Below are positions 7,241 to 37,870 of a stretch of DNA of 64,000 nt, piece by piece. The notes beneath the pieces are model-generated. The model worked only from the letters and a program-made list of their open reading frames with translations. It searched no databases and was not told the origin of the DNA. A program made the translations under genes and the position numbers. The DNA is from Rhodobacteraceae bacterium Alg238-R152 (GTDB lineage Bacteria; Pseudomonadota; Alphaproteobacteria; Rhodobacterales; Rhodobacteraceae). The number at the start of each line of letters is the position of its first letter. Positions within the stretch are counted from its first letter, which is position 1. Location: positions 62,001 to 126,000 of the forward strand of contig UNRJ01000003.1 of assembly GCA_900537125.1 (NCBI GenBank), written 5' to 3'.

Positions 7241-7377
7241 TTGCTCCAAAAAACATGACTTTCCCGGCCCCCGCAAGCGCCTCTGGGACGCAGAGTTAAG
7301 TTGCTTTAACACCGAGGTTTTGCGACAACGCTTTGAAACCGCCCGATTTTGCGGGTTTTGTCGCGGAGGCAAACGCT

Positions 7378-9439: not shown

Positions 9440-9543
9440 TGGCGTCAGGTCTTCCTTTGTGAGCGGTGTGGTCGGGCCCACACAAACGCAAAACGCGCGC
9501 CATGACTATAGCGCGCGTGTCTCAAACTGTCAGGGTGTGGCGT

Positions 9544-10209
9544 TCACACGCCGGTGCCGGCCATGACCACAGCAACTGTGCGCCAGACAACAGAGACGTC
9601 GGTGCGCAGGCTCAAGGCGCGGTCATAGTGGCTGTCATGAATGGCGCGCTCAGCAAAAGAGCATTCGTTGCGCTCGGAAATCTGCCAGAAACCAGTGATG
9701 CCCGGACGCATGCGGTAATAGGCCGTACCTGGATATAGGGCGGTTTGCTCAGGCATCATTGGGCGCGGGCCAACCACGGACATGTCGCCAAACAGGACGT
9801 TCAGGAACTGGGGCAGCTCGTCCAGTGAGGTCTTGCGGATGAGGCGACCAATAGGCGTGATACGTGGATCATGCGCCAGTTTCTGTTTTTCGTTCCACTC
9901 CAGACGCGCAGCTGGATTGGCACGCAAGTAGGCCTCCAACTTGCGGTCTGCATTGGGCACCATGGAGCGCAGTTTTAACATCGAAAACCGTTTGCCGTTT
10001 TTGCCGACGCGTTCTTGGCGATAGAATGGTGACGCCCCATCCAGAGAGATGAGTAAAGCGAGCAATGCCACAACCAGTGTCACGGGCAACGCAATTGTCA
10101 GCACAAACAGGATATCAAACGCACGCTTGAAGACGCTGCGGTATGCACTTGGGCGTGCCGAAGAAACTTCAAAGGCTTGTTCAAAATCTTCACGCGAAAA
10201 AATCGCCAT
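9544..10209 (-). CDS. ExoY-type undecaprenyl-phosphate sugar phosphotransferase
   Basis: 221 residues from the ATG at 10209, with GGGGA eight bases upstream; an ATG at 10218 is possible. One N-terminal membrane helix (LFVLTIALPVTLVVALLAL) is followed by the bacterial sugar transferase domain: PFYRQERVGKNGK, KLRSM, ITPIGRLIRKTSLDELPQ and GDMSVVGPRPMMPEQ. It starts polysaccharide synthesis by loading a sugar-1-phosphate onto undecaprenyl phosphate at the inner face of the membrane. It is the short ExoY form without the long N-terminal membrane region of WbaP/WcaJ. Confidence 0.93.
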   Translation of the reverse strand: MAIFSREDFEQAFEVSSARPSAYRSVFKRAFDILFVLTIALPVTLVVALLALLISLDGASPFYRQERVGKNGKRFSMLKLRSMVPNADRKLEAYLRANPAARLEWNEKQKLAHDPRITPIGRLIRKTSLDELPQFLNVLFGDMSVVGPRPMMPEQTALYPGTAYYRMRPGITGFWQISERNECSFAERAIHDSHYDRALSLRTDVSVVWRTVAVVMAGTGV

Positions 10210-10693
10210 CGGTGTCATCCCCGTAACCCAACCAGAAGGGCATCAAATTGAAACGCAACATCCATTCGCCGGACCAGACATGGTCCGAACGTGTGTCTCA
10301 CGTACCTTCTTTGCTTAAGCACCCCGGCAGCAGGGGCTGATCACATAGGTCCTTGCGACGTCGCTCTTTTTGATGCTCCTTCATAAGAAGCGCCCACCCA
10401 GGACTTACATTAGTCACAAATTTACAGAAATCCACCTTAACTTTCGGATAGTTTCGTCTAAGTGTTTGATAATAAATAAAATGACGCATTCTGTTTTCGA
10501 TATTTTTTGCAAACTTGGTTAAAATTTGTGGCAAGCTTGCCATTTTGCGGTTCGTGTTTGGAAACGGTGATGTAGGTCTCTTTTTGATTGTTTCGTAGGG
10601 TGAAAAACTGACTTGGCGTCACCCAACCAAAACTTGGCAGCGATTCGCCGAAAACCAGCGCAAAGGGGGTGAAATGTGGCGCAATTGTGGCCG
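10210..10693. promoter_or_regulatory. AT-rich regulatory interval upstream of the priming transferase
   Basis: About 480 bases without a convincing gene separate the chain-length gene from the priming transferase; both read leftward. Its centre (10420-10550) is clearly AT-richer than the surroundings and contains the perfect 14-bp palindrome listed separately. A short open frame at 10298-10543 has no ribosome site or recognisable product and is not called. The region probably holds the promoter and operator of the priming transferase and perhaps a long leader. Confidence 0.5.
10529..10542. repeat. Perfect 14-bp palindrome TGGCAAGCTTGCCA
   Basis: The two halves are exact inverted repeats with no spacer. 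It lies about 320 bases upstream of the priming transferase start in AT-rich sequence, a position suited to a dimeric regulator. The regulator is unknown. Confidence 0.55.
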
Positions 10694-11965
10694 CTATTTG
10701 CCCAATTTCAGGATCATTGCCGCCAATCCACCGGACACGGCCAGCAGACCAAACACCTTAGTGAGGCGTCCCAGCTTGCGCCGCCGGCGCTGACGTGGGG
10801 TTTCCAGCACCGGAATGGCTGCCACTGCGCGCAGGCGCAATTGACGCTCGAGCTGACCACGGGTCCAAATCACCGGGCTGCGCATATCCAGCACAAACAC
10901 CAGGCTCAGTGCGACCATGACAGACAGCACCCCGCCCATCGCCAGAATGCGTTTGCGCGAGGGCGCAATCGGCCAATCCGGGGGCAGGGCTTTTTCCAAT
11001 ACGGTGAAACTGTCGGTTTGCTGACTTGCCTCTAACATCTGCTGCATCTCCGCTTCGGCCTTGCCGGCGGTGATCGCTTGATACTGTTCTTCGAGCTTGG
11101 TCAGCTGCCGCTCCAAGCGGTTGTATTGCTGTTCAATGCGCGGGGTGTCTTTGAGCGCGGCCTCAATCTCGGCGATCTCAATCTGATAGAGCTCACCTTC
11201 TTCTTGCAGGCGACGCAGGCGCTGGGCGCGCACCGAATTGCCACTGCTGGAGATGCCGACATTTTCCAAAAGTTGGCGCTGCACTTCCAGTTCGATCTGT
11301 TGCAAGTCCGTGAGCCGTGTGCGCAGCGCTTCGACACCACCAGGCAACAACACCGCGTTTTCCTGCTTATAATCGGCAATCTGCTGTTCCAGATTGGTGA
11401 TCGCAGCGCCAATCCGGCGCTCTTCGCTGTCAAAGAATGACAGGGTTTCGCTGACCTGCGCTGTGCGACGTTGGTCTTCTTGGTCCAAAACGTTGTTCAC
11501 CAGCTCATTGGCAACATTGGCGGCCAAAACCGGATCGGTCATGCGCACCGACACCAGTAGAGCAGAGGGGCTGATGTCCTGACGCCAACGGAAATCCGGG
11601 TTGGTGATATGGGCCACTCGTGCGGCGCGGCGCAAGAGCTCGACCTTCTGCAACTCGCTCAAGGGCGCGTCGCTGTAGAGCCCAAATTTCTCGATGATGG
11701 TCAGCAGATTGTCCCGTGCCATCACGCGTTGTTCCACAATCTGCAGCTTTTGCAGCATGTCTGCGTTTAGCGCACCCGGCGAAGTCGCGCCGGTCTGGAT
11801 CGAGGGCTGCTCGATCTGTATTGTGGCATGGGTCTCATATTCGCGCGGCAGGCCGAGCACGTAGGCCAGCGAGATCAAGCCGCCGATGACAATAACGCTG
11901 GCCCACAGGAAAAACCTCCTGCGCAACATGCTCAGCACTTCGCCAAATGATTGGAACTTGTCCAT
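10694..11965 (-). CDS. Wzz/GumC-type polysaccharide chain-length determinant protein
   Basis: 423 residues from the ATG at 11965, with GAGG six bases upstream. One membrane helix lies at residues 20-40 (FFLWASVIVIGGLISLAYV) and another near residue 325-345, with a third hydrophobic stretch at the C-terminus. Between them is a long coiled-coil region rich in Glu, Gln and Leu (about 160-300). This is the layout of the Wzz/PCP family, which controls polymer length and export. No Walker motifs of a fused BY-kinase are present, so it is a PCP without kinase. Seventy-three bases separate it from the upstream phosphopantetheinyl transferase. Confidence 0.9.
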   Translation of the reverse strand: MDKFQSFGEVLSMLRRRFFLWASVIVIGGLISLAYVLGLPREYETHATIQIEQPSIQTGATSPGALNADMLQKLQIVEQRVMARDNLLTIIEKFGLYSDAPLSELQKVELLRRAARVAHITNPDFRWRQDISPSALLVSVRMTDPVLAANVANELVNNVLDQEDQRRTAQVSETLSFFDSEERRIGAAITNLEQQIADYKQENAVLLPGGVEALRTRLTDLQQIELEVQRQLLENVGISSSGNSVRAQRLRRLQEEGELYQIEIAEIEAALKDTPRIEQQYNRLERQLTKLEEQYQAITAGKAEAEMQQMLEASQQTDSFTVLEKALPPDWPIAPSRKRILAMGGVLSVMVALSLVFVLDMRSPVIWTRGQLERQLRLRAVAAIPVLETPRQRRRRKLGRLTKVFGLLAVSGGLAAMILKLGK

Positions 11966-12024
11966 GCCCGTCCTCAAATTCGTTCTGGCGCGACTCAGAT
12001 TCGCGCTCTTGAGGACAATTTATG

Positions 12025-12038: not shown

Positions 12039-12773
12039 TTATCCCGTGGCGCAAACCGGAAAGTTTGCGTTTTCCATTCCGGCCTGCGCGCCCAGAGTGA
12101 CCAATGCCAACACATGGCCGCCGCCTGTGGCACATTGGCCGGATAACACCGTGCCTTCCGGCACCTCACCAACAGTTTGCATGAAGCGCGCGGTGAACCC
12201 TGTGCTGTGGAGATTGAGGGTGATCTCAATCGCGTCAAAGCCAAAGAGCATGCCGGTCAGTGGATACTGTGCTTTGTAGACCGCCTCTTTGGCGCAAAAC
12301 AGCCGCCGTGCCATCAACGCCCGCTGGGCTGCGGGAGTGTTTGTCAGCCAGTCGCGTTCCTGTGGCAGGCAGATTGCGGCCGTCAGATCGTCATGCAACG
12401 GAGCGTCCGGTTCCACGTCCACGCCAAGTGCACGGAATCGGGTGTTTGCGCCTACAAGTGCAACACAGCTTGTTGCGTCGTGGCTGATCGAGCCGGTTAG
12501 CCCCTTGGGCCAGTGTGGTGCGCGGTCTGGCCGTTTTGGCACCGCCTGTTCCGGGTGCCCCAAATCCAGCATCGCCATGCGCGCCGCTTGCCGACCGGCG
12601 GCAAACTCGCGCCGCCGTTTGGGAATGGCGTGGGCAATCGCCGGGGCTTCTTGTGGCCAAACAACCGCCACGCCACGGGTTGGGTCGGTCACCGCCACAG
12701 CGGCTTCTGGCGGCGCCATACCCTGCGCCAGAGATTTCAGAGCCACGAGGTGCTGGTTGGAGGACAGAGTCAC
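12039..12773 (-). CDS. 4'-phosphopantetheinyl transferase (EntD/Sfp superfamily)
   Basis: 244 residues. It shows the family series [22 protein letters not shown] (Mg-binding Asp/Glu) and [10 protein letters not shown]. It attaches the phosphopantetheine arm from CoA to the conserved serines of carrier domains, here presumably Ser1470 of the NRPS and Ser1796 of the PKS. Its ATG overlaps the stop of the NRPS gene by four bases, tying its expression to its targets. The motif layout is closer to EntD than to Bacillus Sfp. Confidence 0.94.
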
Positions 12774-15700
12774 GTGCGAGTCCTCCGGCGTGCCCGCATA
12801 GCGCGGCGTTTGCTCATGGTCTCAGAGCGGCTTGCTGCCTGTTCCGCCACTTCTTCGCTATCTTTGGTCTCCGGTGCACCGGTTGGTTTTGGCAGGCCGG
12901 TCAATTCCTGTACGCGACCGGACAAAGCATTGAGCGTTGGGAAGCGGAACACATCGGTGATCGACAGCTTGGCCGCGCCGGATCGTGCCCGGATTTCCCG
13001 GTGCGCCTGCACCGCCAGCAAGCTGTGCCCGCCAAGATCAAAGAAGTTATCCGTGGCCACAACCTCCCGCACGCCCAGAACCTCCGCCCAGACATCTGCC
13101 ACCATTTTTGCGATATCCCCACCGGCTTCGGCCGGCGCAGCAGGGGCCATAGCCTCCACTTTTGGTGTGGTGATTTTGCGAGTCTCTTCGGGGCGCGGCA
13201 AGGCTTTGCGATCGACTTTTTTGTTGGGTGTCAGCGGGAAGTCTGCCAGCGTCACATAGTGTTGGGGGCGCATAAAGGCTGGCAGGCTTTCCCGCAGTTG
13301 CGCGCGCACCTCGGCCTCTGCGGGACCATCGCCACGCAGGTACGCCACCAGCCGCACATCGCTCGGCGTGTCTTCGCGCGCCACAACAACCGCCTGCGTC
13401 ACGCCAGGCACCTCTTCCAGCCGGGTTTCGATTTCGCCAAGTTCAATACGATAGCCGCGCAGTTTGACCTGATGATCAACACGCCCAAGGAAGTCGAGCT
13501 TGCCATCGGCGCGCCAGCGCACAAGGTCACCGGTGCGATAAAGGCGCCCGTCGCCAAACGGATTTGCGATAAAACGCTCCGCCGTCAGCTCTTCGCGTCG
13601 CCAATAGCCCCGTGTCACCCCCGCGCCGCCAATCAGCAGTTCGCCAGCCACGCCCACGGGCACCGGTGCGCCGGAATCGTCCACCACATAGACTTGGGTG
13701 TTGGCAATTGGATCGCCAATATTGGCCACACCTTCAGAGGCATCTGCCATCGCGGTTGTGGACCAGATTGTGGCCTCTGTTGGCCCATACATGTTTTGAA
13801 TTTTGGCACCGCTTGCCGCGTTCAGATCCGCGACCAGACCGCCGGATAGCGCCTCGCCGCCGACCATCATTTGCTGCACACCAGAGAGCGCAAACCGCGC
13901 CTCTTCGTTGTCGGTTAACAGACGCGCCATCGACGGTGTACATTGCACATGGCTCACCTCATGGCGCAGCATCTGTGCCGCAATCGACACATCTTCGGGG
14001 TCCAACTCGCCACCTTCATTGGCGCGTTTCAACACTTCCGCGATGGGTTTCAGACCGTCCATGACGGTGGCACTGTCGATGCCATAGTCAATCAGGCAAG
14101 CAATCTCGGTCACGCCGATGCGCTTGACCTGTTCCACCCGATCCAACGCATCTTCCACGGTGCCAAACAGCCCGCTGGTCTCAAAATAGCGCAGGAAGGC
14201 AGCTTCAAGGATCTCTTCAAGCTCCTCTTCGTTCAGGATGCCAAGGTCCAACTCAAACGCGTTGTTTACCCCTTCGGGTTTCTTGAACGCCGGGAAGGCC
14301 CAGGCAAATTGCTTGATCAGGCCTGCCGCTGAGCGCAGGTAGTTTTTCATCGGCTCACGCGCGATATCGCGTGCCACTTCACGGTCCTCAGCCAGATAGC
14401 TGTGCAACATCAGAGTGATGGTGAAATCATCCGGGTCATGGCCGTTTTCACGCAGCGCATCGTGGTAGAGTTTGATCTTGCTCTCCACCTCATCGATGCT
14501 TTGGCCCAACAAGTGCGTTAGCACGTTACAGCCATGTCGCCCGGCCTCAACCCAAGTGTCCGGATTGCCTGCTATGGTCACCCAGATCGGCAGCTCCTTG
14601 GATACCGGACGCGGCTGTGTCACCACCCCGTGCATCGTGCCGTCCACTTTGGCGAATTCAACCTCTTCGCCACGCCACAGTTTGCGCAGATCGCCAATCT
14701 GATCCAGCATGACAGACTTGTTGTTGGGCGGCGAATTCTCCGGACGCAGCACAAAGTCGTTGGGTTGCCAGCCAGCGGCCACAGCAATTCCGGCGCGCCC
14801 ATCGGTCAGGTTGTCGATGATGGACCAGTCTTCGGCAATCCGCGCGGTATGATGAAGCGGTGTCACGCACGAGCCTGCCCGCACGCCAAGGTTTTTGGTC
14901 ACAGCAGCCACCGCCGCGCCGGTCACTGCCGGATTGGGGTAAGGGCCACCAAAAGCGTGGAAGTGACGCTCGGGCGTCCAAAGTGCCGTGAACCCGTTGG
15001 CATCGGCAAACTTCGCGCCTTCCAGCAGCATCTCGTATTTCTTGGAGCCTTGGCCGTCGTCGTTGCCCCAGAAATAGAGCGAGAAGGCCATGCCGCCTGC
15101 AGAGGTTGGCAGGCGCCCGTTGGAAATTTGGGTGGTTGTTTCGTCGCCGGACAGCACCAGCTTGAAGCCCCGTGACAGCGTCCAGAACAGCTCCAACACA
15201 GAGATATCAAACGACAGCGAAGTCACCGCCATCCACGTGTCACCTGCCCGATACGGCACGCGGGCATCCATCCCGGCAAAGAAGTTGGCCACGTTGCCAT
15301 GGTCAACCATCACGCCTTTGGGCGTACCCGTGGAGCCGGAGGTGTAGATCAGATAGGCGAGGTCATCGCCGGAGACGATGGCCTCGGGGTTGTCAGCGGA
15401 CGCCGCAGACAACCGCGCGTCGATGTCCATCTCCAATACCTGCGCACTGTGCTCTGGGAGATCGCGGGTCAACGCGGCCTGTGTCACAATCACACTTGCG
15501 CCGCTGTCGCTGATGTAATGCGCCAAACGGTCCGCTGGGTAGGCCGGGTCCATCGGCACATAGGCGCCGCCGGCTTTCAGGATTGCGAGCGCGGCCACCA
15601 CCATATCCGGCGAGCGGCGCAGACACAGGCCCACCAAGGCGCCCCGGGTCACCCCCATGTCACGCAAAACATGTGCGGCCCGGTTGGCGCGGGCATTCAG

Positions 15701-17431
15701 CTCGGCGTAACTCAGTTCCTCATGTTCAAACACCAAAGCGGGCGCATCCGGGGTCTTTACCGCTTGTGCTTCAAATTGCGCGGCCATGGTGAAGTTGGCA
15801 TCAAACGAAGCGTCGGTGGCGTTCCAGCCGCTGAGCACTTCGGCGCGCTCGGCTTCTGGCAAGACGTCCAGATCGGCCACAGTGGCTGTGCTGCCAATCT
15901 GCGCGCAGATCAGCTCCAGCCGCGCGGCCAAACGGGCCGCGTGATCTGGGGAGACACGCGCGGCATCAAAATGCAGCGCCGTGCTGGTTGCGCCAATGGC
16001 AACCGTCATGGCCGCGCCGTCAATTGGTCCGGCCAATCCACCGGTGGTCACGGCCACATCAGGCATGGTTGGCACAGACAAGGCAGGATCGCGGGCAATC
16101 AGGTCGCGGGCAAAGCTGCCGTTGAGGTCGGCTTGCGCCGCGCGCTCTGCCATCGCGGTGTCTGCTTCAGATACGGTGTTATGCAGCAGTTCCGCGCCCA
16201 CACGCAGCGGCACCCATGGCGAAATCAATCCCGCCGCCTGCGGATGGTCCGCGCCGCGATAGGCGATATCGCAGACCTCCGGAAGGCCTGACCGCAGCGC
16301 CCAAATGGCGACTGCGGTCAGAATACTCTTGGAGGGAGTCTCGGAAAGTGAAAGCGGCAGCTGCCGCATGTCGGCCAGGTCTCCACCGCCACGGATCAGT
16401 GGCAGGGTGGCAGGCACAAACTCTGCCAAACGCGCACGCCAGAACGGCTCGGTTTTGGCAAGAGGGGTCATCGTGGTTGTCAGCGCGTCGCTTGCAGGTT
16501 TGTCGAGAAGCGGCAGCCGTTCGCCAGATCGGATCACATGATTGGCGGTTTCTTCATTGCCAGACACGTCAGTTATTGTGCTCAGCACCGCAGCGCCGCG
16601 TCCACAGGCCACAGTCACGCTGTCGTCACTCACAGCCAGCACAGCACCGGGTTCGCCACGACCCGCACTTTCCGCCACTTCGGCAGATGTCACCAATAAG
16701 ACGCGCCCAGCCGCCACCATCTTAGGCGCGGAGAGCGGGTTGAAATAGTCGCCGTGATCCAAGGCGCGCACCAACGCCACCACATCCTGCGCGTCGCGGC
16801 GGAAATCAATCCGCCCTGCGGCTTCAGGTCTTTTGGCGCGGCCAAAGTAGCTACGCAGGCTTAAGTCCTGTGGGCGTGCGTTGACCAAATCTTCGCCCAA
16901 TGCGCGCATCACGTCCGGGAAGCTCTCGATGGCGGCGGCGTAACATTTGGTGTTGAGTGTCAGCGCGGTGTCGGTTTGGCCAATGTCAAACATGCGCTGC
17001 GCAACAATCTCACCGGTGTCCGCACCAATTTCCATTTTGTGCCAGGTGATGCCGTGGCGTGGTTCCTGTGCCATGCGTGCCCAGACCGGCGCATTCAGGC
17101 CTGCATAGCGTGGCAAAGGCCCATCGTGGAAGTTCACCGCGCCTTTGGTTGGGAGTTTCAGCAGCGTGTCTGACAGCATGTCGAGATTGGCAACACTCAG
17201 AAGCCACTCAAACCGGTCCCCCAACAATTCCCCCGCGATGTCGCTATCGGAGGAAACCACGCGCAGCCCTTCCGCTTCGGCCCAAGATCGGATTTCCGGT
17301 GCGCGTGTGACCACCGCGGTCAGGGTGTTGCCAGTGTCTCGCCAAAGCGTGGCGCATTGGATCAGCAGACTTTCGTTGCCAATCATTACGGCAGACATAG
17401 GCGCGGCGTTGGTAAAGCTATCAAGGCTCAT
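12770..17431 (-). CDS. One-module NRPS: formyltransferase-like, truncated C, A split by luciferase-like monooxygenase, carrier domain
   Basis: 1553 residues. Residues 1-300 resemble methionyl-tRNA/ArnA-type formyltransferases and keep the catalytic set Asn100, His102 and Asp138 ([20 protein letters not shown]). Residues 320-540 look like only the C-terminal half of a condensation domain; no HHxxxDG is present. The adenylation domain starts near 550 ([13 protein letters not shown] type motif at 694-706, FDISVLE at 741). It is interrupted at about 776-1137 by an FMN luciferase-like monooxygenase of the TIGR04020/MupA-Atu3671 type, and resumes to about 1415 ([18 protein letters not shown]). The carrier motif is [12 protein letters not shown] with Ser1470. 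My reading of the ten specificity positions is D-I-L-Q-M-G-M-I-W-K, close to glycine codes. There is no thioesterase, so the chain must pass onward, presumably to the PKS ketosynthase. Both ends overlap neighbours by four bases. Confidence 0.93.
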
Positions 17432-18438
17432 GAAGAGGCCTCCTTGCGAACAGACAGGGTGGGGGTTTTGGACGGTTCGCGCTGCGCCCTACGGAAGAGT
17501 GATTTTAGGGAGTGGGTGATTAGGTCACGCAAGAAATGGTCCGGGTCGCGCTTGGGTTTGCCCCCAATCACGCGCCGCAGCTTCCATAGGCAGGTGCCCA
17601 TAACATGCGCCAGAGTGGCGGTGACGGCGTAAAGATTACCGTGGTTTTTGCGGAAATAATGCAGGCGGCTGTCAAACCAGTATTGCGGCATACGCTGCCA
17701 GGTTTTCATGCCGGTGGAGACCGACCCGATATGGGTCACAGAGCTTGAGCGCACATAATCCGTGTGCCACCCCGCGCGCTGGGCGCGCAGGCAGAGGTCG
17801 GTTTCCTCAAAGTAGAGAAAGAAGGTCTCGTCAAAGAGGCCAATCTGTTCCAGCACCTCGCGTCGCATCAGCATCGACGCGCCTGCCAGCCAATCCACCC
17901 GTGTGGTTTCTGCGGGGATTGGCAGGGGCACAATATGTTTGTGTAAAGCCCGGCTGAGCAACCCAACGCGCGCTGCGCCTTCGATTTCGCCACCGATTGA
18001 TGGGAAGCGAAACGCGGTCAGATGAGGTTCACCGTCTTCGCCGTGGATGTACGATCCAGCAAAACCACAGGTTGGCATCTGCGTCATATGATCGAGCAAG
18101 GCAGTGATGCTGCCTGCATCGGGGAAAGCGTCAGAGTTCAGGATGTAAACAAAGTCAAAGTTGCGTTGGGCCAACCCATGGCGGATGCCAAAGTTGTTGC
18201 CCGCGCCAAAGCCGCCATTGCGGCCCGATTGCACAACCTCAACACGGCCCTCAGCCCATCCCGCCTGGGCTATACCCTCGCATATGGCCTCAAACGAGCC
18301 ATCGCCACTGTCGTTGTCGACAATCACAATCAGCCCGTCGATCCCACCCATCTCACGCGCCGCCGCTTGCGCCGCCTTTAGCGTCATGTCCGGCGTGCGC
18401 CAGTTCAGGATCACGGTCAAAAGAGATGGCGTGCTCAT
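17428..18438 (-). CDS. Family 2 glycosyltransferase (WbbL/rhamnosyltransferase-like)
   Basis: 336 residues. The GT2 fold is shown by [11 protein letters not shown] at the N-terminus, [24 protein letters not shown] (a hallmark of the rhamnosyltransferase-like subgroup), LNSDAFPD as the metal-binding acidic motif, and [15 protein letters not shown]. It transfers a sugar from a nucleotide or lipid donor; the donor is unknown. It sits between the PKS and NRPS genes with 4-bp overlaps on both sides, so it is made together with the assembly line. This argues that the PKS/NRPS product or its carrier is glycosylated, or that its glycan is the acceptor. Confidence 0.92.
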
Positions 18439-21400
18439 TCCGCAGCCCTCCGTGCAGTCCGCTTGGGCAGGTCTTTCTCTGCCGCCGCGATCACTTTTTT
18501 CATGCGGGTGGCCAGCACACGTACGTTGGGTTCCAGCACCATGCTGTCGTGGTCTCCGGGCACCTCAAATACCTTTACGCTTGGCACCCACTGACCCCAG
18601 TCGTTGTCATGGAACACATAGGCCCGATCCCCATCGACCAGACGGCCGTCTCCCATGTCCCATTTGCCCACCAGCGGCGGACGGAACAGCACAAGATTGC
18701 CTTCCCAAGCCTGCATAGGGTATTGCGCCACAGCCTGCAGGAAGGCGGATTCAATTTCAGCATCGTGAAATTGCTGCCCTTGCGCCTCACCTTCGGTTTC
18801 CTCACTTGGACGACGTTTCTCGATCTCCCAAGCAATCCGGTTTTTGGCCCAAATCAATGGGTAGGCCACACCTTTGGCCTTCAATTCCTGCATCTGGATA
18901 CGCATGCGGTCCTGACGGCTGAGCGCCCGGCGCACTGGCAATGGTGTGTCGAGCATCGCGACCAGTGCAACTTTGTCGCCCTGCGCTTCCAACTGGCGGG
19001 CGATCTCATAGGCAGTGATGCCACCACCAGAGAAACCGCCAAGCAGATACGGCCCCTCCGGCTGCACCTGTTTCATCTCAGCAATGTAGTCGGTTGCAGC
19101 TTCCACAAGATTGTCATGTGGCGCAGCGTCGCCAAACAGGCCCCGCGCTTGCAGGCCATAAAACGGCCGATCCGCCCCAATTAGATGTGCCAGGTGGCGC
19201 AGGTTCAGCACATTGCCAAACATACCTGCCACCAAGAAGAACGGCGTGCGGTGCCCGCCTTCGCCCTGATGCATGGGTACCAGATGGGTGAAGCGGCTTT
19301 GCGGGCGGGCCTCGGCCTCCGCAGTGGCGTCTCCCGACGCGCCGTCGCTCAAAACCGTGTCGCCCACCCGCTCTGCAATCATCGCGGCACAGGTTTCAAT
19401 TGTCGGCGCTTCAAACAGCACCGAAATCGGGAACTCAATGGCCCAGGCCTTTTTCACCATTGCAAATAGGCGCACCGCAATCAGGCTGTGCCCGCCAAGA
19501 TCAAAGAAGCTGTCGCGGATGCCAACTTGGTCAACACCCAATAAATCTTGCCAGAAACCCGCCAACGTGCGCTGGATATCGGTCTCAGGTGCAACGTAAT
19601 CGGTTTCCAGCTCTGGTCGCTCAAAACTTTGGCTTGGTCCGCTGTGCTCATCGGCCCCGGCCTCTGCCTGCGTGATCAGCGCCGCCAAATCGAGCGAAGA
19701 AATCACCACTAGCGCGTGACTGCCGCGCAGCGCCGCTTCAAACATATCCGCACCCTGCTCTGGTCGAATGCCTTGGGACAGATTATGCGCCAGTCGTTCC
19801 TCAGCCGCAGACATCGGAGCCTGTGCTTGTACGTCCGCGTCAAAGCTGACCTCTGCTTTGCTCAGCGGCTGCGCCTTGGCAAAACCAGCGGCGGTCTGCA
19901 CCTGGCGCAGCATCAGGCCTTTGACCTCTATGCAAATCGCACCGGTGCCATCGGTCAAAACAACGTCAAATCGTGCGGAGCCTGTATCGCTGTCGCCGTC
20001 CATAAGCGTCACATGGCTCATCACCTCATCTGGCAACGGCGCATGGCGGGACAAGCGGTCGTAGCCCACAGGCACCCAGAGATGTCCTTGCGCATAGCCG
20101 GGGATCAAGTCCATGGCCCAACCGGTTGCGATGTCCAGCAAGCCGGGATGCATTTGCAGACCGTCGCCGTCAAACTGCGCATCCAGGCTCAGACGCGCGA
20201 GGCCTTGTCTGGCCCCCAACGCGGTTTCGCGCAGCACTTTCCAGCGCGGGCCAAAGCGCATATGCGCCTCTTGTGGGGCACTCAATGCAGCGCCAAATCC
20301 GTTTTGCTGTACGGGGCAATCTGCTTTTATTGCTTCAAGATCCAGCGCAGTTGGGGCAGCAACACGCACCGGTGCAAGCCGCGCCTCAGCATGGGTTTGC
20401 CACCCTTGCTGGCCTTCAAAACTCACGGCGGTTTGCACCTCAAAGTTATAACCTTCCTCTGAGCGGATCAGGCGCAATCGCATGTCTGTGCCGCCGGACT
20501 CGGCCACCCGCATGGGGCGCAAAAATAACAGATCATGAAGCGCAAATGGGGCGGTCTCGCCCTGGGCTGTCAGGGTTTCATAGGCCAACGAAATATAACC
20601 GGTGCCGGGCATAACCGCGTCGCCGTCCAGCGTGCGGTGCTCGTCCAAAACCCAGTCTTTGGCACTCAGCGTTGTGGTGAAAATCCGGTTGCCCTGTGCA
20701 TCAAAGCCAGCACCTTGCAGAAGTGGATTGTCGATCGCCTCAGTTGGCGTATCTACAATATGGCCCTGCCGCGCGGCGACAGCTTCGGCGGCCATGCCCA
20801 CGTCAGACCAAAGGCCCCAGTTGATGGCGCGCACGCGGGTTTTGTCACCATGTCTCGATTGCGCGTAGGCGTTTAGGTAGGCGTTCGCAGCCACATAATC
20901 GATTTGTCCAGCAGGGGCCGTCGCGGTTGAGGAGGAGGCAAACAGCACCAGCCAATCTAGGCCACCATCGGGGAAAATCTGCTCCAGAACCTGCGTGCCG
21001 TGCAGTTTGGGGGCAAGCACATCGTCAATGCCTGCGGAGGTTTTGGCCAACAGGGGCCCATCGTCGATCACACCGGCGGCATGGATCACGCCGTTGATTG
21101 TGCCAAACGCATCGCGCGCAACCTTCACCGCCTCTGACATCTCATCCACGTTGCACACATCCGCTGCCAAAGGCAGCACGTTGCCGCCGAGGCTTTCCAG
21201 ACGTTCCACCGCGCGAATGCGCTGTGCCACCCGATCATGCGGGGCGTGGCCGTGCAAATAATTTGCCCATGTGTCGCGCGCGGGTAGCCCGTCCCGCGCC
21301 AGCAGCGCCACATTGGCATTTGCCTCTTTGATCATGCGTTCGGCCAAGGTGAGGCCAATACCGCCAAACCCGCCCGTGATCAGATAGGTGCCGCCTTCTT

Positions 21401-24400
21401 TGAAGACCGGCATTTCTTCGGTCTCTATGGCCACTTTGCGATAGCTACGCTCAAACCGTTTTTCGCCGCGCCACGCCGCGATCTGTCCGTGCGGCGGAGC
21501 CATCAAGTCTTCCAAGATTTTGTCAGTCAGCCCATCGCGGGCCTTCTTGGCTGGCGGTACGACATCGAGCAAGGCGCAGGTCACGCCGGGCAATTCGCGC
21601 CCGATCACCTGCACCGCGCCCAGTATGGTAGATTTCTCTGGATAGGGCAGCGCTTCTTTGCGCACCTGCACCGCGCCGGAGCTCAATGCCGTGATGTGCA
21701 AAGGTGTGGGCAGGTTTACATCGCTCACCGCTTGGGCGAGGAAAAACAGGCTCATCAGCCCCTGTTCCTGATTGCGATGGAAAAAGCTCGATCCCGGACG
21801 GTGGTTTTCATCCTCAGTCAGAAGCCACATGTGCACAACGCGATCGGGCACGCGGCCTTTGTTCATCAGGCTTTGGAGCAGAGCGTCATAGCCATCGCGC
21901 CCGCGTTCCGGCGCAAGCGCGTAGCTGTCTGGCCCGGTTTCGGCAAAGGCATCGCCGGTGGTGACAGTCACCACGTCCTGTCCCGCGTCACGCAGGCGTT
22001 TGGCCAGTGCCGCACCTGTCCCGCCCTGATCCACAAAGATCAGCCAGCTGTGTTTCTCCGCCGACGCCAATTCGCTCTCAACGTCAATTTCACAGGCCGC
22101 CAATTGGGGAGTCCAAACCGGCGCGTAGCTCCAATCGGCAGCGTCTTCCAACCGCATGAGCAGGTCGTCTTTGGCCTCGAACTGCCCTTGGCCCGGCTCG
22201 ATGAAATAGCGACTGCGCTGGAAGGCATAAGACGGCAGCACCACTTTTTGACGTGGCGTGTCGCCCCAATATTGATCAAAGTTCACATTCACGCCGCAGG
22301 CCCAAAGCTGGCCCAGAACGGTGAGGAAATTGGCGTCATCTGCGATGTCATCATCTGGATGGCGTAGGGAAGACAATACTTTGTCCGCTTTCACCTGCCC
22401 GTGCATTTTCACCAAAGAGGACAGGGCTTTGCCGGGGCCTACTTCGAGATACACCCGTCCATTTTGCTGCGCGAGCGTGGTGATGCCATCTGCAAAGAAA
22501 ACGGTGTTGCGCAGGTGACCAACCCAATAGTTGGGATCGGTGGCTTCGCTGTCCAACAACGTTGCACCACTGCGATTTGAGATGATCGGCAGGCTTGGCG
22601 CGTGAAGCTGAATGGTGCGGAGATAATCCTCAAACCGGCTCAAAATCGGCTCTAACATGCGCGAATGCGCGGCGATGTTGATTGGTACCCGCTGGGTCTC
22701 GATCTCCTGATCCGCAAGTTTGACCGCCAAGGCAATCAAGGACGCATCTGATCCGGACACCACGGTCAGCGCAGGTGCATTCACCGAGGCAATATCGATG
22801 TCTTCATTCAGATGTGGTTCCACCTCCGCCAATGGCAGCGGTATGGACAACATCCCGCCCGCAGGCACTGTGTCAAACAACTGCCCGCGCAGCTGCACCA
22901 GACCCAGACAATCTTCAAACGACATCACGCCCGCCAGACAGGCTGCCGTGTTTTCGCCCATCGAGTGGCCAACCAAGGCAGCAGGCTTCACGCCCCAGCT
23001 CATCCAAAGTTGCGCCAGCGCATATTCCACCATCATGATCAGCGGCAGTTGCAGACTGGGTTTCTTCAACGTCTCTTCTGCGTCGGCGGCAGCGTCACCT
23101 TCAGCCAACCAAAGCGCGCGCAGCTCATCGCCACCTTTGCCTGCGAGATGGGCAAAGCCACGCTCCATCCACTCCTCAAACATTGGCTCCGTTTCAAAGA
23201 GATCACGGCCCATGCCCACATACTGCGCACCGCCGCCGGGAAACATAAACACCACCTCAGGTGCCTCAGCTTCGGCGGCATGGGTAAACACCCGCCGCAG
23301 GTTGCCACTTTCGAGATAGTCCGCGGCCTGCTCATGGCTTTCCGCCACAAGTACGCGCCGCTTCTCAAACGCGCGCCGCCCGTTCATGAGGGTGTGCGCC
23401 ACATCGGCCAAGGGCTGGTCCGGATGCGCTCGGAGATGCGCTGCGAGATTGGTCGCATTGGCGTCCAGCGCTTTGGTGGATCGGCCTGACACGGCGATCA
23501 ATTGAAACGGCCAATCACTCTCCGCACTTTCGGCCCGTAGGGGGGCTTCCTCAATCACCACATGCGCGTTGGTGCCGCCAACCCCAAGGCTGTTCACGCC
23601 CGCGCGGCGTGGCCCTTTGTGGCTCTCCCAGCTCTGCAAACGTGCATTCACCGCAAAGGGGCTGGTTTCAAAATCAATCGCCGGATTGGGTTTCTCAAAG
23701 CCAAGGCTTGGGGGCATTTCTTTGTGATGCAATGCCAGCGACGCCTTGATCAAGCTGGCCGCTCCTGCGGCTGTGTCCAGATGGCCGATGTTGGTTTTTA
23801 CGGAACCGATCCGGCAAAAACCGGTGTCCTCAGTGGTTTCGCGAAAGGCTTCGGTCAGCGCGGCAACTTCAATGGGGTCACCCAGATAAGTGCCGGTGCC
23901 GTGGCACTCGACGTAATCCACAGTGTCCGCAGGCACATCGGCTATGGCCAAAGCATCCGCCACGGCTGCGGCCTGACCACCCACCGAAGGGGCGAGATAG
24001 CCTGCCTTGTCACTGCCATCATTGTTGACCGCTGATCCTTTGATCACCGCCCAAATGTGATCGCCATCCGCGATGGCATCTTGCAAACGTCGCAACACAA
24101 CCACACCCGCGCCGGAGCCAAACACGGTCCCCTGTGCGCGGTGGTCGAACGCGTGGCATTCGCCGTCTGGGGATAGGATTTCGCCATCCTCAAACACATA
24201 GCCGCGCCCATGCGGTAACTCGATGGTCACCCCCCCCGCCAGCGCCATATCACACTCGCCGTTCAGGATCGACTGAGCCGCATAGTGCACCGCCACCAGC
24301 GAGGTAGAACAGGCGGTTTGCAGACCTAAGCTTGGGCCGTTCAGGTCCAAGATATGGCTCAATCGGGTGGTCAAAAAATCCTTGTCATTGCCAGTGTGGC

Positions 24401-24872
24401 GTAGAAGGAACATGCCAGTGCTGTCGACCAAATCGCGGTTTGAGCAAATGTTGAAATAGAAATAGCTGCCCATGCCGCAGCCACCATATACCCCAATGGG
24501 ACCATCAAAGGTCTCCGGCATATGGCCTGCATTTTCCAATGCCTCCCAGCTTACTTCGAGGAACTGGCGATGTTGCGGGTCCATGATTGCGGCTTCTTTG
24601 GGGGATAGCCCAAAGAACTCCGCATCAAAATTGGCAAATCCATCGAGCATCGCGGCGGCGGGCACATAGTTGCGATGCGCCATCTTGGCCCGGCTTTCGC
24701 CATTGTCGAGCAGAGTTGCCTCATCGAGTATCTTGATAGACCGGATGCCGTTGCGCAGGTTGTGCCAATACTGATCAATGCCCGACGCGCCGGGCAGGTG
24801 GGCGGCCATGCCCACAATTGCAATATCCGTCTCTGCGACCGGTTGGTCTGTCGGGCTTGTCACCACATCCAC
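18435..24872 (-). CDS. Type I PKS module: KS-AT-KR-DH-T-TE
   Basis: 2145 residues from a GTG (further GTGs two and three codons on are alternatives). The KS at 15-440 has Cys188 in TACST, His324 in ECHGTGT and His364 in TNIGHLD, so it looks active. The AT at 540-830 has Ser637 in GHSMGE; its selectivity motif reads IAAHS instead of HAFH or YASH, so the extender is uncertain. The KR (1160-1360) has TGGFGGIG and Tyr1326. DH-like domain at 1405-1660 has His1412 with PGTGY and Asp1580 in LLDIATGW. The carrier serine is Ser1796 and the thioesterase (1875-2145) has GGFSGGG with Ser1948. There is no loading AT and no ER. The order KR before DH is unusual. The stop overlaps the glycosyltransferase start. 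Confidence 0.94.
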   Translation of the reverse strand: MDVVTSPTDQPVAETDIAIVGMAAHLPGASGIDQYWHNLRNGIRSIKILDEATLLDNGESRAKMAHRNYVPAAAMLDGFANFDAEFFGLSPKEAAIMDPQHRQFLEVSWEALENAGHMPETFDGPIGVYGGCGMGSYFYFNICSNRDLVDSTGMFLLRHTGNDKDFLTTRLSHILDLNGPSLGLQTACSTSLVAVHYAAQSILNGECDMALAGGVTIELPHGRGYVFEDGEILSPDGECHAFDHRAQGTVFGSGAGVVVLRRLQDAIADGDHIWAVIKGSAVNNDGSDKAGYLAPSVGGQAAAVADALAIADVPADTVDYVECHGTGTYLGDPIEVAALTEAFRETTEDTGFCRIGSVKTNIGHLDTAAGAASLIKASLALHHKEMPPSLGFEKPNPAIDFETSPFAVNARLQSWESHKGPRRAGVNSLGVGGTNAHVVIEEAPLRAESAESDWPFQLIAVSGRSTKALDANATNLAAHLRAHPDQPLADVAHTLMNGRRAFEKRRVLVAESHEQAADYLESGNLRRVFTHAAEAEAPEVVFMFPGGGAQYVGMGRDLFETEPMFEEWMERGFAHLAGKGGDELRALWLAEGDAAADAEETLKKPSLQLPLIMMVEYALAQLWMSWGVKPAALVGHSMGENTAACLAGVMSFEDCLGLVQLRGQLFDTVPAGGMLSIPLPLAEVEPHLNEDIDIASVNAPALTVVSGSDASLIALAVKLADQEIETQRVPINIAAHSRMLEPILSRFEDYLRTIQLHAPSLPIISNRSGATLLDSEATDPNYWVGHLRNTVFFADGITTLAQQNGRVYLEVGPGKALSSLVKMHGQVKADKVLSSLRHPDDDIADDANFLTVLGQLWACGVNVNFDQYWGDTPRQKVVLPSYAFQRSRYFIEPGQGQFEAKDDLLMRLEDAADWSYAPVWTPQLAACEIDVESELASAEKHSWLIFVDQGGTGAALAKRLRDAGQDVVTVTTGDAFAETGPDSYALAPERGRDGYDALLQSLMNKGRVPDRVVHMWLLTEDENHRPGSSFFHRNQEQGLMSLFFLAQAVSDVNLPTPLHITALSSGAVQVRKEALPYPEKSTILGAVQVIGRELPGVTCALLDVVPPAKKARDGLTDKILEDLMAPPHGQIAAWRGEKRFERSYRKVAIETEEMPVFKEGGTYLITGGFGGIGLTLAERMIKEANANVALLARDGLPARDTWANYLHGHAPHDRVAQRIRAVERLESLGGNVLPLAADVCNVDEMSEAVKVARDAFGTINGVIHAAGVIDDGPLLAKTSAGIDDVLAPKLHGTQVLEQIFPDGGLDWLVLFASSSTATAPAGQIDYVAANAYLNAYAQSRHGDKTRVRAINWGLWSDVGMAAEAVAARQGHIVDTPTEAIDNPLLQGAGFDAQGNRIFTTTLSAKDWVLDEHRTLDGDAVMPGTGYISLAYETLTAQGETAPFALHDLLFLRPMRVAESGGTDMRLRLIRSEEGYNFEVQTAVSFEGQQGWQTHAEARLAPVRVAAPTALDLEAIKADCPVQQNGFGAALSAPQEAHMRFGPRWKVLRETALGARQGLARLSLDAQFDGDGLQMHPGLLDIATGWAMDLIPGYAQGHLWVPVGYDRLSRHAPLPDEVMSHVTLMDGDSDTGSARFDVVLTDGTGAICIEVKGLMLRQVQTAAGFAKAQPLSKAEVSFDADVQAQAPMSAAEERLAHNLSQGIRPEQGADMFEAALRGSHALVVISSLDLAALITQAEAGADEHSGPSQSFERPELETDYVAPETDIQRTLAGFWQDLLGVDQVGIRDSFFDLGGHSLIAVRLFAMVKKAWAIEFPISVLFEAPTIETCAAMIAERVGDTVLSDGASGDATAEAEARPQSRFTHLVPMHQGEGGHRTPFFLVAGMFGNVLNLRHLAHLIGADRPFYGLQARGLFGDAAPHDNLVEAATDYIAEMKQVQPEGPYLLGGFSGGGITAYEIARQLEAQGDKVALVAMLDTPLPVRRALSRQDRMRIQMQELKAKGVAYPLIWAKNRIAWEIEKRRPSEETEGEAQGQQFHDAEIESAFLQAVAQYPMQAWEGNLVLFRPPLVGKWDMGDGRLVDGDRAYVFHDNDWGQWVPSVKVFEVPGDHDSMVLEPNVRVLATRMKKVIAAAEKDLPKRTARRAAE

Positions 24873-24971: not shown

Positions 24972-26339
24972 TCAGGGCAAATTGAGGGCAGAAAGATTAA
25001 CGATCGCGCTGTTGTGTAGCCAAAAGGCGAGGCCACCTAGGCCAATGCCCAGAGTCCAGAATACCGCATCATGCTGTGCATCCCAAGCGCCATGCCGTCG
25101 GGCCAGAACAACCACCGCCGGATAGGAAAACACCATCGCCAAACCTTGCCCAACCAAGGCACCCACGAGGCCATGTTGGCTGGCCCCACCCATCAGGCCC
25201 ACCATCATCAATGCAGCCCGTGTTGCGGCCAACATGAAAAACCCACGGCTGTCCCCTGCTGCCAAAGCCGCTTGGTCATAAGTCAGCGCAATCACCTGCG
25301 GAATTTGCATCACCGCCAAAAGCACCACCACGCCACCTGCAAGCCCATAACGCGGGTCATAAAGCAGGGTGATCAACCCCACGCCAGCTAAGGCAAATAG
25401 GGCCAAAAGTCCCATCAGTCCTGCGCTCAACATCATCCGCATCTTGTGCAATTTGGCACGGTTTTCTGTGCTCTCGCTGGGAGGCTTTTCGCGGTAGATT
25501 GGGATCATGATCCGCCGCATCAACATGCCGCCAAGCAAGAGCGGGAAGGAGGCAAGGAAATAACCGATGTTGTAGACCCCAAGCGCGCCAAGGCTCAGGT
25601 GTTTGCCCAGCACAATCTTGTCACCTTGAGACAGCAGAAACCCGGCAGCAGTAGACAGAAAAATCCACTTGCCAAAATGGATGAGCTCGCCGGCGGAGGG
25701 CTTGTCCCAGCGAGGTTTGTTGAGCTCGCCGGGCAGGAAAATATAGTAGAAAACCAACTGCATAACGGTTGTGGTCACGGCATTGGCAACAAGCGCCCAA
25801 ACCGAGCCTGTTGTCCAGGCGATGACAACCCCAACCACCAACCCAATCACTTGTGCTGACAGGTCAATTGCGGTGATCCGTCCCAAGGAAAGATGGCGGT
25901 TGGCACTGTCTTTTTTGGTGGGGAACAGGCCCATGATCAGCAGCGTCAACCCGACCACTGGCAGGATGTCTGCGAGCTCTGGAGCGTCATAAAATACCGC
26001 AGCAGGTGCGGCCAATGCCCAGGTCAGCGCAAGTAGGAAAACGCCGCGCATCACCTGTATGGTCCAGGCCGTATCGAGGAAGGCACGATCTTCGCCGCGT
26101 TTGCTTTGCAAAATGGACTGGCTCACGCCCATGTCACTAAGGTTGGCCATGCCTTGCAGGAACACCCAAACAAGGCTCATCAGGCCAAAGGCTTCGGGGA
26201 ACAGCAGACGTGTGAGGATCAGGTTGGAGGCCAGCCGCAACGCTTGTGAGCCACCGTATCCAAGGATGGTCCAGCCCCCACTGCGAATGGCGCGCGCGGC
26301 GAGGGAATTGCCCTGTGTAACGCTCTTCAATCGGTTCAT
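24972..26339 (-). CDS. Oligosaccharide flippase family protein (Wzx/WzxC-type)
   Basis: 455 residues from the ATG at 26339. It is a polytopic protein with about twelve to fourteen hydrophobic helices and the typical N-terminus of the polysaccharide-exporter clan (SGGWTILGYGGSQALRL, then LFPEAFGLMSLV). Members flip undecaprenyl-linked oligosaccharides across the inner membrane. The start overlaps the stop of the upstream glycosyltransferase (ATGA), and the PKS gene begins 99 bases downstream. The flippase is therefore placed between sugar-handling genes and the PKS/NRPS line. Confidence 0.92.
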   Translation of the reverse strand: MNRLKSVTQGNSLAARAIRSGGWTILGYGGSQALRLASNLILTRLLFPEAFGLMSLVWVFLQGMANLSDMGVSQSILQSKRGEDRAFLDTAWTIQVMRGVFLLALTWALAAPAAVFYDAPELADILPVVGLTLLIMGLFPTKKDSANRHLSLGRITAIDLSAQVIGLVVGVVIAWTTGSVWALVANAVTTTVMQLVFYYIFLPGELNKPRWDKPSAGELIHFGKWIFLSTAAGFLLSQGDKIVLGKHLSLGALGVYNIGYFLASFPLLLGGMLMRRIMIPIYREKPPSESTENRAKLHKMRMMLSAGLMGLLALFALAGVGLITLLYDPRYGLAGGVVVLLAVMQIPQVIALTYDQAALAAGDSRGFFMLAATRAALMMVGLMGGASQHGLVGALVGQGLAMVFSYPAVVVLARRHGAWDAQHDAVFWTLGIGLGGLAFWLHNSAIVNLSALNLP

Positions 26340-27160
26340 CGTCCCCGGTTCCAAGTGGCGGTTCTTTGCGGGGTGAATTTCACGACAATGGACACAGCCG
26401 CATAGACCGCAAAGCCAATTGGATCACGCAGCGCCATGCTCAGTTTCTGCGCTGTGCTCAGGGAAAACTTGTCATCGTTTTTGAGCAGCTCCGGAAATTT
26501 TGCCTTAATTTCGTCAACACCTGCGTTCTGGCGGCGGCGTACTTTGACCAAAGCCGCAACGCCTTCGACCAATGGCCAATCGTAGCCTGCCTGAGTGCTG
26601 AGTCGTTCTTTTGGTGTGAAGTTTAGGCGCACAAAGGTGTCGTCGGAAATGATGCCGGGGAAGTCATGCCAACGTGCGCGACCCGCGCCGTTTACCGCAA
26701 ACAGCCCCGCGCCGGGAACCCCATGGGTGACAAAGGGCACCTGGGCATAGGTGCGTGCATAGGCCCGTGTCGCCCATGTCTCGGCCTGTGCAAGCCGCAG
26801 CGTGCCACTGGCATAGCGAGGCGCATCGGTGTCGAGCGTTTTGGCGATTTGCCCCATCAGGGCTGTGTCCACAATCACGTCTGCATCCAGATAGGCGCGC
26901 ATATCAAATGTCGCGGCTTCATCAGCGGCATTTAACGCGCCCATCTTGCCCAAGGCAGGCAGGTCCAACACTGTGAGGTGCCAGCCTTTGTCCTTGACGG
27001 CTGTGCGGAAGCTCTCGGCAATCCGAACGGTGTCATCGTCACAGCCGTTGCCTGCGACCACTAACTGTGCAGTCTCCGGTCCATCGGACGCCAGCACAGC
27101 CTGAAGGCAGGCCCCAATATGGGTGGCCTCATTGTTGGCTGGAATGAGAATGCTCAGCAC
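26336..27160 (-). CDS. Family 2 glycosyltransferase
   Basis: 274 residues from a GTG with only a weak ribosome site. The N-terminus SILIPANNEATHIGACL and the acidic motif YLDADVIVD define GT2, and a later SDDTFVRLNF fits the catalytic-base region. A hydrophobic segment near the C-terminus (IGFAVYAAVSIVV) may anchor it to the membrane. The stop overlaps the flippase start by four bases. It probably extends the lipid-linked oligosaccharide handled by that flippase; the donor sugar is unknown. Confidence 0.88.
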   Translation of the reverse strand: MLSILIPANNEATHIGACLQAVLASDGPETAQLVVAGNGCDDDTVRIAESFRTAVKDKGWHLTVLDLPALGKMGALNAADEAATFDMRAYLDADVIVDTALMGQIAKTLDTDAPRYASGTLRLAQAETWATRAYARTYAQVPFVTHGVPGAGLFAVNGAGRARWHDFPGIISDDTFVRLNFTPKERLSTQAGYDWPLVEGVAALVKVRRRQNAGVDEIKAKFPELLKNDDKFSLSTAQKLSMALRDPIGFAVYAAVSIVVKFTPQRTATWNRGR

Positions 27161-30212: not shown

Positions 30213-30289
30213 GCCTTGCGTCCTCCTCACCTGTTCTGAACCTCACTATGGGTGATTTCGTGAGGTGTTCAAAGGGCATAGGTTGCGCA

Positions 30290-32534: not shown

Positions 32535-32535
32535 A

Positions 32536-33770: not shown

Positions 33771-33793
33771 GTCGCCTCTCCATTCCAAAAGGA

Positions 33794-33818
33794 TGACTTG
33801 ATATAGTATAACATTTCC
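33794..33818. promoter_or_regulatory. Candidate Zur box
   Basis: The 89-base gap between zur and znuA has an imperfect palindrome of two 12-mers around one base, centred on ATATAGTATAAC; 8 of 12 positions are symmetric. The right half, TATAACATTTCC, agrees with the AT-rich palindromes described for alphaproteobacterial Zur. One site could serve both divergent promoters. Confidence 0.7.
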
Positions 33819-33859
33819 AATAGAGCCAGCGCAAATATTCAAACACAGAGGCATCCCTC

Positions 33860-36578: not shown

Positions 36579-36776
36579 GGCGTCCTCACTGGCAGCTTTA
36601 GAGCGGAAGGGGCGTACCGGTATTCTTCACCGTGAAGACCACAGGGGCAAGACATAAGCCTGTGATCTAAAAGTGTTTCCGGTAGGACTCAGCTTAAGAT
36701 GTTTTTCTCAAGAGCGGTTTAGTGGCTCCGGTGGCTTGTGGTATGCACAGTTCAAACAAACCTTGAGGCCAGTTCA

Positions 36777-37829: not shown

Positions 37830-37870
37830 CACAAATGTGCAGGTGGGCAGAGTAACAAAAGGGCCAGAGC

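Follow-up and report, generated by a model that had tools for sequence, protein, structure and literature searches.

Introduction

RkpA and WcbR are thought to make the lipid end of rhizobial and Burkholderia capsules, and their capsule systems carry a linked AONS (RkpG-like) gene together with ABC-type capsule export. Linear gramicidin synthase LgrA starts with an F-A-PCP module. In the accessible parts of PMC3908369 and PMC4245539, RkpA and WcbR (Sinorhizobium rkp, Burkholderia wcb) provide the precedent for a mono-modular type I polyketide synthase (PKS) in capsule clusters. Here we analyze a 64,000-nucleotide stretch (the window; G000:C3:62001-126000) of the 4.27-Mb genome of Rhodobacteraceae bacterium Alg238-R152, in which an operon joins a type I PKS, a glycosyltransferase (GTa), a nonribosomal peptide synthetase (NRPS) and a phosphopantetheinyl transferase (PPTase). 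With a probability of roughly 60%, PKS and NRPS work as dedicated components of a Wzx/Wzy-type exopolysaccharide pathway, making a glycine-primed, C2-extended acyl substituent.

The operon shares features with three described systems and departs from each. As with RkpA/WcbR, its type I PKS lies among polysaccharide synthesis and export genes; compared by description only, it differs in that the PKS is paired with a monooxygenase-containing NRPS, a PPTase and a glycosyltransferase in a Wzx/Wzy-type locus. The NRPS resembles LgrA, its best PDB sequence match overall (9be3, E 2.8e-217), in having a formyltransferase ahead of the adenylation-carrier (A-T) module. Unlike in LgrA, the A domain is of glycine type by its code and is interrupted by a monooxygenase (MOx), and about 240 unassigned residues separate it from the formyltransferase (FT). 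The third likeness is to the Gly/MOX domains (TIGR04020; PuwE structure 6ket; PMC12283262), which belong to the same domain family and have a nearly identical code. In the available text these are reported from peptide or hybrid metabolite lines, whereas here the domain stands in a polysaccharide locus, with an FT and no recognizable condensation (C) domain.

Roseobacter and Paracoccus PKS/NRPS clusters have been catalogued as metabolite genes in the available text of PMC4062626, PMC3910554, PMC11225332, PMC8273931, PMC12735020 and PMC8383342. The Phaeobacter and Paracoccus clusters among them (PMC4062626, PMC3910554, PMC8273931) are treated there without any polysaccharide link; in the main text of PMC8273931 the word polysaccharide does not appear. 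These are probably the same genes as the operon described here, a match made by description rather than gene by gene. We base this on locus tags that are two apart in each pair (PKS Inhi_1972 and NRPS Inhi_1974; NRPS Daep_00048 and PKS Daep_00050), on a CP157 cluster located on a 225-kb element that resembles our hit H10/H47, and on the naming in PMC8273931 of a copy in Arc7-R13, the source of one of our loci (L053). Among the partly accessible papers, in which subscription journals are thinly represented, we recognized none that links this PKS/NRPS to Rhodobacteraceae polysaccharide, and the accessible parts of PMC4359443, PMC5064897 and PMC6374434 hold nothing against that negative.

Results

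Polysaccharide assembly genes adjoin the operon in all surveyed loci

The four genes occupy positions 12039–24872 of the minus strand, as the sequence-only reading had placed them; coordinates and Pfam both confirm this. That reading had also described ATGA overlaps at all three junctions. Each junction is indeed a 4-bp overlap, but only 18435–18438 and 17428–17431 read ATGA; the third, 12770–12773, is GTGA because the PPTase start codon is GTG. In at least 77 of 85 related loci a glycosyltransferase separates PKS from NRPS, with all three on one strand; the count is a lower bound because L010 and L093 were scored as lacking it despite a GTa match there. By stop-to-stop coordinates, 4-bp overlaps recur at the PKS-GT (33/77), GT-NRPS (38/77) and NRPS-PPTase (42/71) junctions. 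This recurrent arrangement is not chance.

Pfam likewise agrees with the claim that the operon is bracketed by glycan assembly genes. On one side lie an oligosaccharide flippase of Wzx type (24972–26354, minus strand; PF13440) and the GT2 glycosyltransferase GTb (26336–27160, minus strand; PF00535). On the other, all on the minus strand, are a Wzz-like chain-length protein (10694–11977; the sole PF02706 match in the genome), a sugar-phosphate transferase taken as the priming enzyme (9544–10218; PF02397) and a Wzy-like polymerase (7892–9481). The polymerase has nine hydrophobic segments by hydropathy, and its PF04932 match of 20.4 bits falls below the cut-off of 31.7.

For a survey of this context, stretches of about 40 kb surrounding the NRPS were drawn from 60 genomes; with the first 40 kb of the window they make 61 loci. 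At E<=1e-100, 145 of the 394 Rhodobacteraceae genomes scanned, which number about one per genus, have an NRPS match; this threshold also admits partial matches and more distant ones, as low as 44% identity. In 92 of the 145, the window not counted, 50 kb or more lie between the contig start and the gene. The survey covered 60 of these, leaving out 12 genomes (seven full-length, five partial or lower-ranked) and 20 mostly lower-scoring ones; G144, a 44% NRPS match inside the family, lay outside it. Families were first defined by all-against-all clustering of open reading frames (ORFs). Clusters 23, 25, 26 and 35 proved to be antisense artefacts lying over Wzy, NRPS, flippase and GTa, with 21, 32 and 37 suspected likewise, so families were recounted by profile searches. 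Profile rows c21, c32 and c37, along with the unannotated c22, c24 and c28, were excluded from the counts.

The recount found PKS, NRPS and GTa families in 61 of 61 loci, with a Wzz-like protein in 60, a ParA/CpsD-type kinase in 56, WecG in 55, PPTase in 54 and flippase (PF13440/PF01943) in 51. A GT2 was present in 51, GT4 in 48, a Wzy-like polymerase in 44, a secreted RTX protein in 44, GTb in 42 and the sugar transferase in 34. At least two of six polysaccharide assembly/export families occur in every locus, and at least four in 51. Two layouts predominate: RTX-GT-flippase-PKS-GT-NRPS-PPTase-Wzz, as in the window, and Wzy-PKS-GT-NRPS-PPTase-SGNH-RTX-GT-flippase.

Matches to glycan genes fall off from the NRPS center, from 226 at 8–12 kb to 146 at 12–16 kb and 66 at 16–20 kb, the last bin being partly clipped by locus ends. 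None of the six families occurs in a small control, the last 24 kb of the window. PF02706 is scarce, with one to four copies per genome in 60 of 61 genomes, and we estimate its chance proximity within 40 kb at about 2%; the Wzz-like gene that adjoins the operon in 60 of 61 loci is thus not there by chance. A second set of 24 named loci (17 genome loci and seven plasmid loci) gave at least two of the six families in 22, with none in L018, a 5.7-kb contig, or in L056, a plasmid of Aliiroseovarius M344. Five further plasmid records and two genomes served only as outgroups or extra relatives. The operon is therefore not found routinely without glycan genes, which was the genomic outcome that would have told against the sequence-only reading.

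A probably secreted protein co-occurs with the NRPS

Association with the NRPS extends to a gene that is only partly linked to it. The putative secreted protein at 27255–30230 (minus strand) has an N-terminal hydrophobic segment, an SGNH-like domain, a weak glycosidase-like region and C-terminal RTX repeats. Its profile matched 139 of the same 394 genomes at E<=1e-40: 129 of the 145 NRPS-positive genomes versus 10 of the 249 NRPS-negative ones (odds ratio 193). In 92 of the 129 it lies within 30 kb of the NRPS, in six farther away on the same contig and in 31 on another contig; since some contigs are short, not all 31 are proven distant. As a single control trait we used the patchily distributed photosynthetic reaction-centre family PF00124, which showed no association (59/145 versus 106/249, odds ratio 0.93, p 0.75). 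Taken together, the surveyed neighbourhoods and this co-occurrence strongly support the glycan link of the operon.

Tight co-occurrence with glycan genes would also be expected if the product were a diffusible signal or cofactor that turns on the polysaccharide genes, and according to the available text of PMC8273931, the antiSMASH region of the Paracoccus cluster includes a gene for an acyl-homoserine lactone synthase. Yet no regulator family appears among the 21 commonest gene clusters, as labelled from scans of the window and of cluster representatives, and the conserved glycosyltransferase joined by 4-bp overlaps has no role in such a scheme. We consider a signal very improbable.

With an hhalign probability of 98.9%, the N-terminus of the secreted protein is homologous to c20, a separate protein of about 320 residues that adjoins the PPTase in the other layout. 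A single module thus seems to be fused in the one arrangement and separate in the other. A c20 model of moderate confidence (mean pLDDT 73.5) matched, at E 3.5e-4 to 2.6e-2, a DUF4886 protein (a family we take to be SGNH), GDSL esterases, the peptidoglycan O-acetyltransferase PatB, the salicylyl acyltransferase SsfX3 and the periplasmic domain of a lipopolysaccharide acetyltransferase; unrelated folds, a small GTPase among them, enter the list at rank 3. The C-terminus matches RTX proteins. Modelling of the secreted protein itself was poor (mean pLDDT 47.2), with no PDB fold match reaching E 0.001 and glycosidase-topped matches to its middle region starting at E 1.1e-3, so the glycosidase-like region is a hint only.

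Conserved active sites suggest a glycine-primed acyl product

Active-site residues of PKS and NRPS are conserved, though less uniformly in one domain. We counted residues taken as catalytic in an alignment of 85 rows (the window and its relatives). The 2145-residue PKS (18435–24872, minus strand) is arranged by Pfam as KS-AT-(structural KR)-KR-DH-ACP-TE. Its ketosynthase (KS; 23553–24830; PF00109/PF02801) keeps C-H-H in 82 of 82 readable rows. The acyltransferase (AT; 22365–23252; PF00698) reads IAAHS in 80 and VAAHS in two of 85 rows, with two gapped and one misaligned, and the IAAHS motif permits no assignment of the extender unit. The dehydratase (DH; 19890–20726; PF21089/PF14765) keeps its His in 84 of 84 readable rows and its Asp in 85 of 85; the acyl carrier protein (ACP; 19377–19568; PF00550) keeps its Ser, and the thioesterase (TE; 18543–19220; PF00975) its Ser and His, in all 85. 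The ketoreductase (KR; 20802–21392; PF08659) is less uniform than the other domains: 78 of 83 readable rows retain its glycine motif, and at the position of the presumed Ser, 54 rows have Ser and 30 have Thr. Pairwise identities of PKS and NRPS correlate (r=0.93), in part via shared ancestry.

The NRPS (12770–17431, minus strand; 1553 residues) is organized as FT, an unassigned stretch, an A domain interrupted by a monooxygenase, and T. The FT, with N and C parts (16502–17404; PF00551, PF02911), keeps N-H-D, which we take to be its catalytic residues, in 84 of 84 readable rows, and the T domain (12914–13102; PF00550) keeps its Ser in 83 of 83. The embedded MupA/Atu3671-type luciferase-like monooxygenase (14033–15085) scores 464.6 bits against TIGR04020 (cut-off 244.45) and is the most conserved NRPS domain, at 73% mean identity to the window. 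The ten-letter code of the A domain in the window is DILQMGMIWK, mapped by eye on what we take to be the GrsA positions. Among 84 readable rows of the 85, 83 fit DILQ-x-GM-(I/V)-WK, and the exception reads DILQLGLVWR. The available text of PMC12283262 describes four Gly domains with MOX, all with the code DILQLGMIWK, and this likeness suggests that the A domain is of glycine type. The C domain of ordinary modular PKS-NRPS clusters has no Pfam match in the NRPS even at E<=10. The same holds for the roughly 240 residues between FT and A, first read as a remnant C domain; with Pfam silent, that reading is a mere guess. The formyltransferase, the MOx-interrupted glycine-type A domain, the lack of a recognizable C domain and the PKS thioesterase were all absent from the sequence-only reading.

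Two smaller enzymes complete the operon. GTa, a GT2-family glycosyltransferase (17428–18438, minus strand; PF13641), matched no sequence in the PDB at E<=0.01. Its closest homologue in two Shinella loci sits elsewhere within the same polysaccharide cluster, so GTa alone does not decide between a product placed on a sugar and one that is itself glycosylated. The PPTase (12039–12773, minus strand; PF17837, PF01648) is of Sfp type.

These features suggest the following route. The PPTase would activate the T and ACP domains, and the A domain would load glycine onto T. The FT would N-formylate the glycine and the embedded monooxygenase would oxidize it, probably at the alpha carbon. The KS may then accept this starter and add at least one C2 unit, singly or iteratively, with KR and DH reducing and dehydrating the chain. 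The thioesterase could release the acyl group by passing it to an OH or NH2 on a sugar, or on a lipid-linked repeat unit, built by the neighbouring glycosyltransferases. Wzx, Wzz and Wzy proteins of the locus would flip and polymerize the decorated unit, and the secreted SGNH-like/RTX protein might trim, move or remove groups on the polymer outside.

The ketoreductase of this PKS stands ahead of the dehydratase, an order reminiscent of iterative PKSs, and this PKS may act iteratively. The assembly line might instead make the lipid end of the polysaccharide, an anchor or special carrier, rather than a group on every repeat. For this there is the known precedent of a mono-modular type I PKS within a capsule cluster (PMC3908369, in part). 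A glycine-type, formylating and oxidizing starter NRPS would be odd for a lipid, however, and the ordinary PF02397 priming family in 34 of 61 loci suggests a polyprenol carrier. General Pfam scans of the window and ten cluster representatives, which did not extend to the 60 other loci, found no AONS/RkpG-like gene and no ABC-type capsule export. We regard a lipid end as improbable.

Weighing the glycan reading

Linkage in all surveyed loci, co-occurrence with the secreted protein and the kept active-site residues together make it likely that the assembly line serves the polysaccharide. The sequence-only reading had proposed either an acyl group placed on a sugar or a product glycosylated before export by the flippase, an interpretation that is supported in part: its glycan link has stood up. 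Membership of the assembly line in the glycan pathway is well supported; its product, acceptor and transfer step are what we infer.

Several points weigh against a glycine-primed acyl substituent. The linkage evidence is gene neighbourhood, not biochemistry. In the available text of PMC12283262, MOX in Gly modules cleaves the glycine backbone and leaves a terminal amide; such cleavage would not lead directly to an oxidized formyl-glycyl starter, and the starter would differ. No acyltransferase occurs in all loci as an obvious sugar transfer enzyme (AT3-SGNH in 16 of 61, c20 SGNH in 20 of 61), and the released product could be free. At the threshold used, the secreted protein is missing from 16 of the 145 NRPS-positive genomes, and the genomes are phylogenetically non-independent, so p-values are indicative only. 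Finally, in two more distant relatives the pair stands apart from glycan genes. On the Aliiroseovarius M344 plasmid (order Rhodobacterales) the NRPS-PKS pair lies beside nos genes, with no glycan assembly genes; in G731 its two scanned neighbours are a TPP enzyme and a GST, with no glycan match in 20 kb. The enzyme type is thus not bound to glycans.

These two relatives also favour a free metabolite, glycosylated by GTa and exported by the flippase or another route, with the polysaccharide genes as mere neighbours. The thioesterase of the PKS, the treatment of such clusters as metabolite genes in the roseobacter and Paracoccus papers, so far as their text was available, and TolC or type I secretion genes nearby in Aminobacter and Shinella fit as well. 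Set against this are the Wzx/Wzy-type genes adjoining the operon in 61 of 61 loci and the co-occurrence with a partly unlinked secreted protein. We judge a free metabolite unlikely.

If the glycan reading is true, a widespread PKS/NRPS-type cluster of a large marine family makes a chemically new polysaccharide substituent rather than a free metabolite. The breadth of this 'cryptic cluster' (145 of 394 genomes) would then be explained, and product searches would move from culture extracts to the polymer. We would also expect a bearing on attachment and on the access of phages and enzymes to the cell.

Relatives extend beyond the Rhodobacteraceae

Among 385 genomes drawn from the class, seven have the NRPS at E<=1e-200, five of them in Rhodobacteraceae, the window's own included. 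Shimia is nearest among the named relatives scanned, its best NRPS segment being 88–90% identical. Plasmid records with a place that spans 80% or more of the query number 18 for the NRPS and 36 for the PKS; in a phage collection no record covered 80% of the NRPS.

The glycan link is common to the Hyphomicrobiales relatives. On plasmids of Aminobacter and Shinella, NRPS, PPTase and a divergent PKS lie in polysaccharide loci that also contain genes for a flippase and for polysaccharide export, and in Hyphomicrobium loci the PKS has WecG- and sugar-transferase-type genes next to it. In a tree of 39 selected rows built by a quick method, a branch with SH-aLRT 100 sets off five Hyphomicrobiales rows (one of them a Rhizobium) together with 28 Rhodobacteraceae rows; the rows of Deinococcus and Nostoc sit on long branches, and their placement is unsure. 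A pair in Methylobacterium bullatum has DegT, GT4, an epimerase and a Wzz-kinase-like gene (25.0 bits, cut-off 25.5) nearby. In a different phylum, a Deinococcus actinosclerus plasmid (L184) places an FT/A(MOx)/T NRPS and a PKS among polysaccharide genes (CapK, PF02719 and UDP-glucose dehydrogenase), the formyltransferase part lying apparently in a separate upstream frame.

We tentatively suggest, at somewhat less than even odds, that these loci define a widespread class of 'assembly-line exopolysaccharides' in Rhodobacterales and some Hyphomicrobiales, perhaps also Methylobacterium and Deinococcus. Its members would be coat polysaccharides bearing on their repeats hybrid nonribosomal-polyketide acyl groups started from N-formylated, oxidized glycine, and a dedicated secreted SGNH-like enzyme would act on the polymer so acylated. 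On that reading, many roseobacter clusters listed as cryptic PKS/NRPS metabolites would be glycan-decoration genes.

Some of these loci have features of their own. The plasmid loci of Ruegeria conchae (L050:5149-6801) and Aliiroseovarius M344 (L056:33407-34356) contain the exosortase gene xrtD. The Paracoccus Arc7-R13 polysaccharide locus includes a second NRPS gene (L053:653-4531). On NZ_CP143307.1 (Paracoccus marcusii) the NRPS match is split over many small frames with the PKS in one piece, which looks like a decayed NRPS. NZ_CP151765.1 (Yoonia sp. SS1-5), a 4287-bp 'plasmid' covered almost fully by PKS fragments, is perhaps an assembly artefact.

Other genes of the window

Read along the minus strand, the window locus runs from the secreted RTX protein through GTb, flippase, PKS, GTa, NRPS, PPTase, Wzz-like protein, sugar transferase and Wzy-like polymerase to four further genes. 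These are an AT3-SGNH membrane O-acyltransferase (5159–7624; PF01757 and PF19040), a GMC oxidoreductase (3591–5162; PF00732/PF05199; 19 of 61 loci), an SDR oxidoreductase (2846–3598; PF00106; 26 of 61) and a Gfo/Idh/MocA sugar oxidoreductase (778–1911; PF01408; 28 of 61). On the plus strand at 2100–2849 is a WecG/TagA/CpsF-type glycosyltransferase, assigned by membership of cluster 10, whose representative matches PF03808. Promoter-like sites (4 versus 5.2 in shuffles) and terminator-like sites (24 versus 19.0, sd 4.4) gave nothing usable.

Beyond the locus, a zinc uptake set at 31734–34912 comprises an ABC-3 permease, an ATPase, a Fur-family regulator and ZnuA. Two neighbouring proteins with GT92-type domains follow at 36738–40135 (plus strand). 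One frame at 41453–43006 (minus strand) joins DUF427 (PF04248) to a class III nucleotide cyclase domain (PF00211), and a DNA methylase with a RAMA domain, presumably CcrM-like, lies at 45570–46697 (plus strand).

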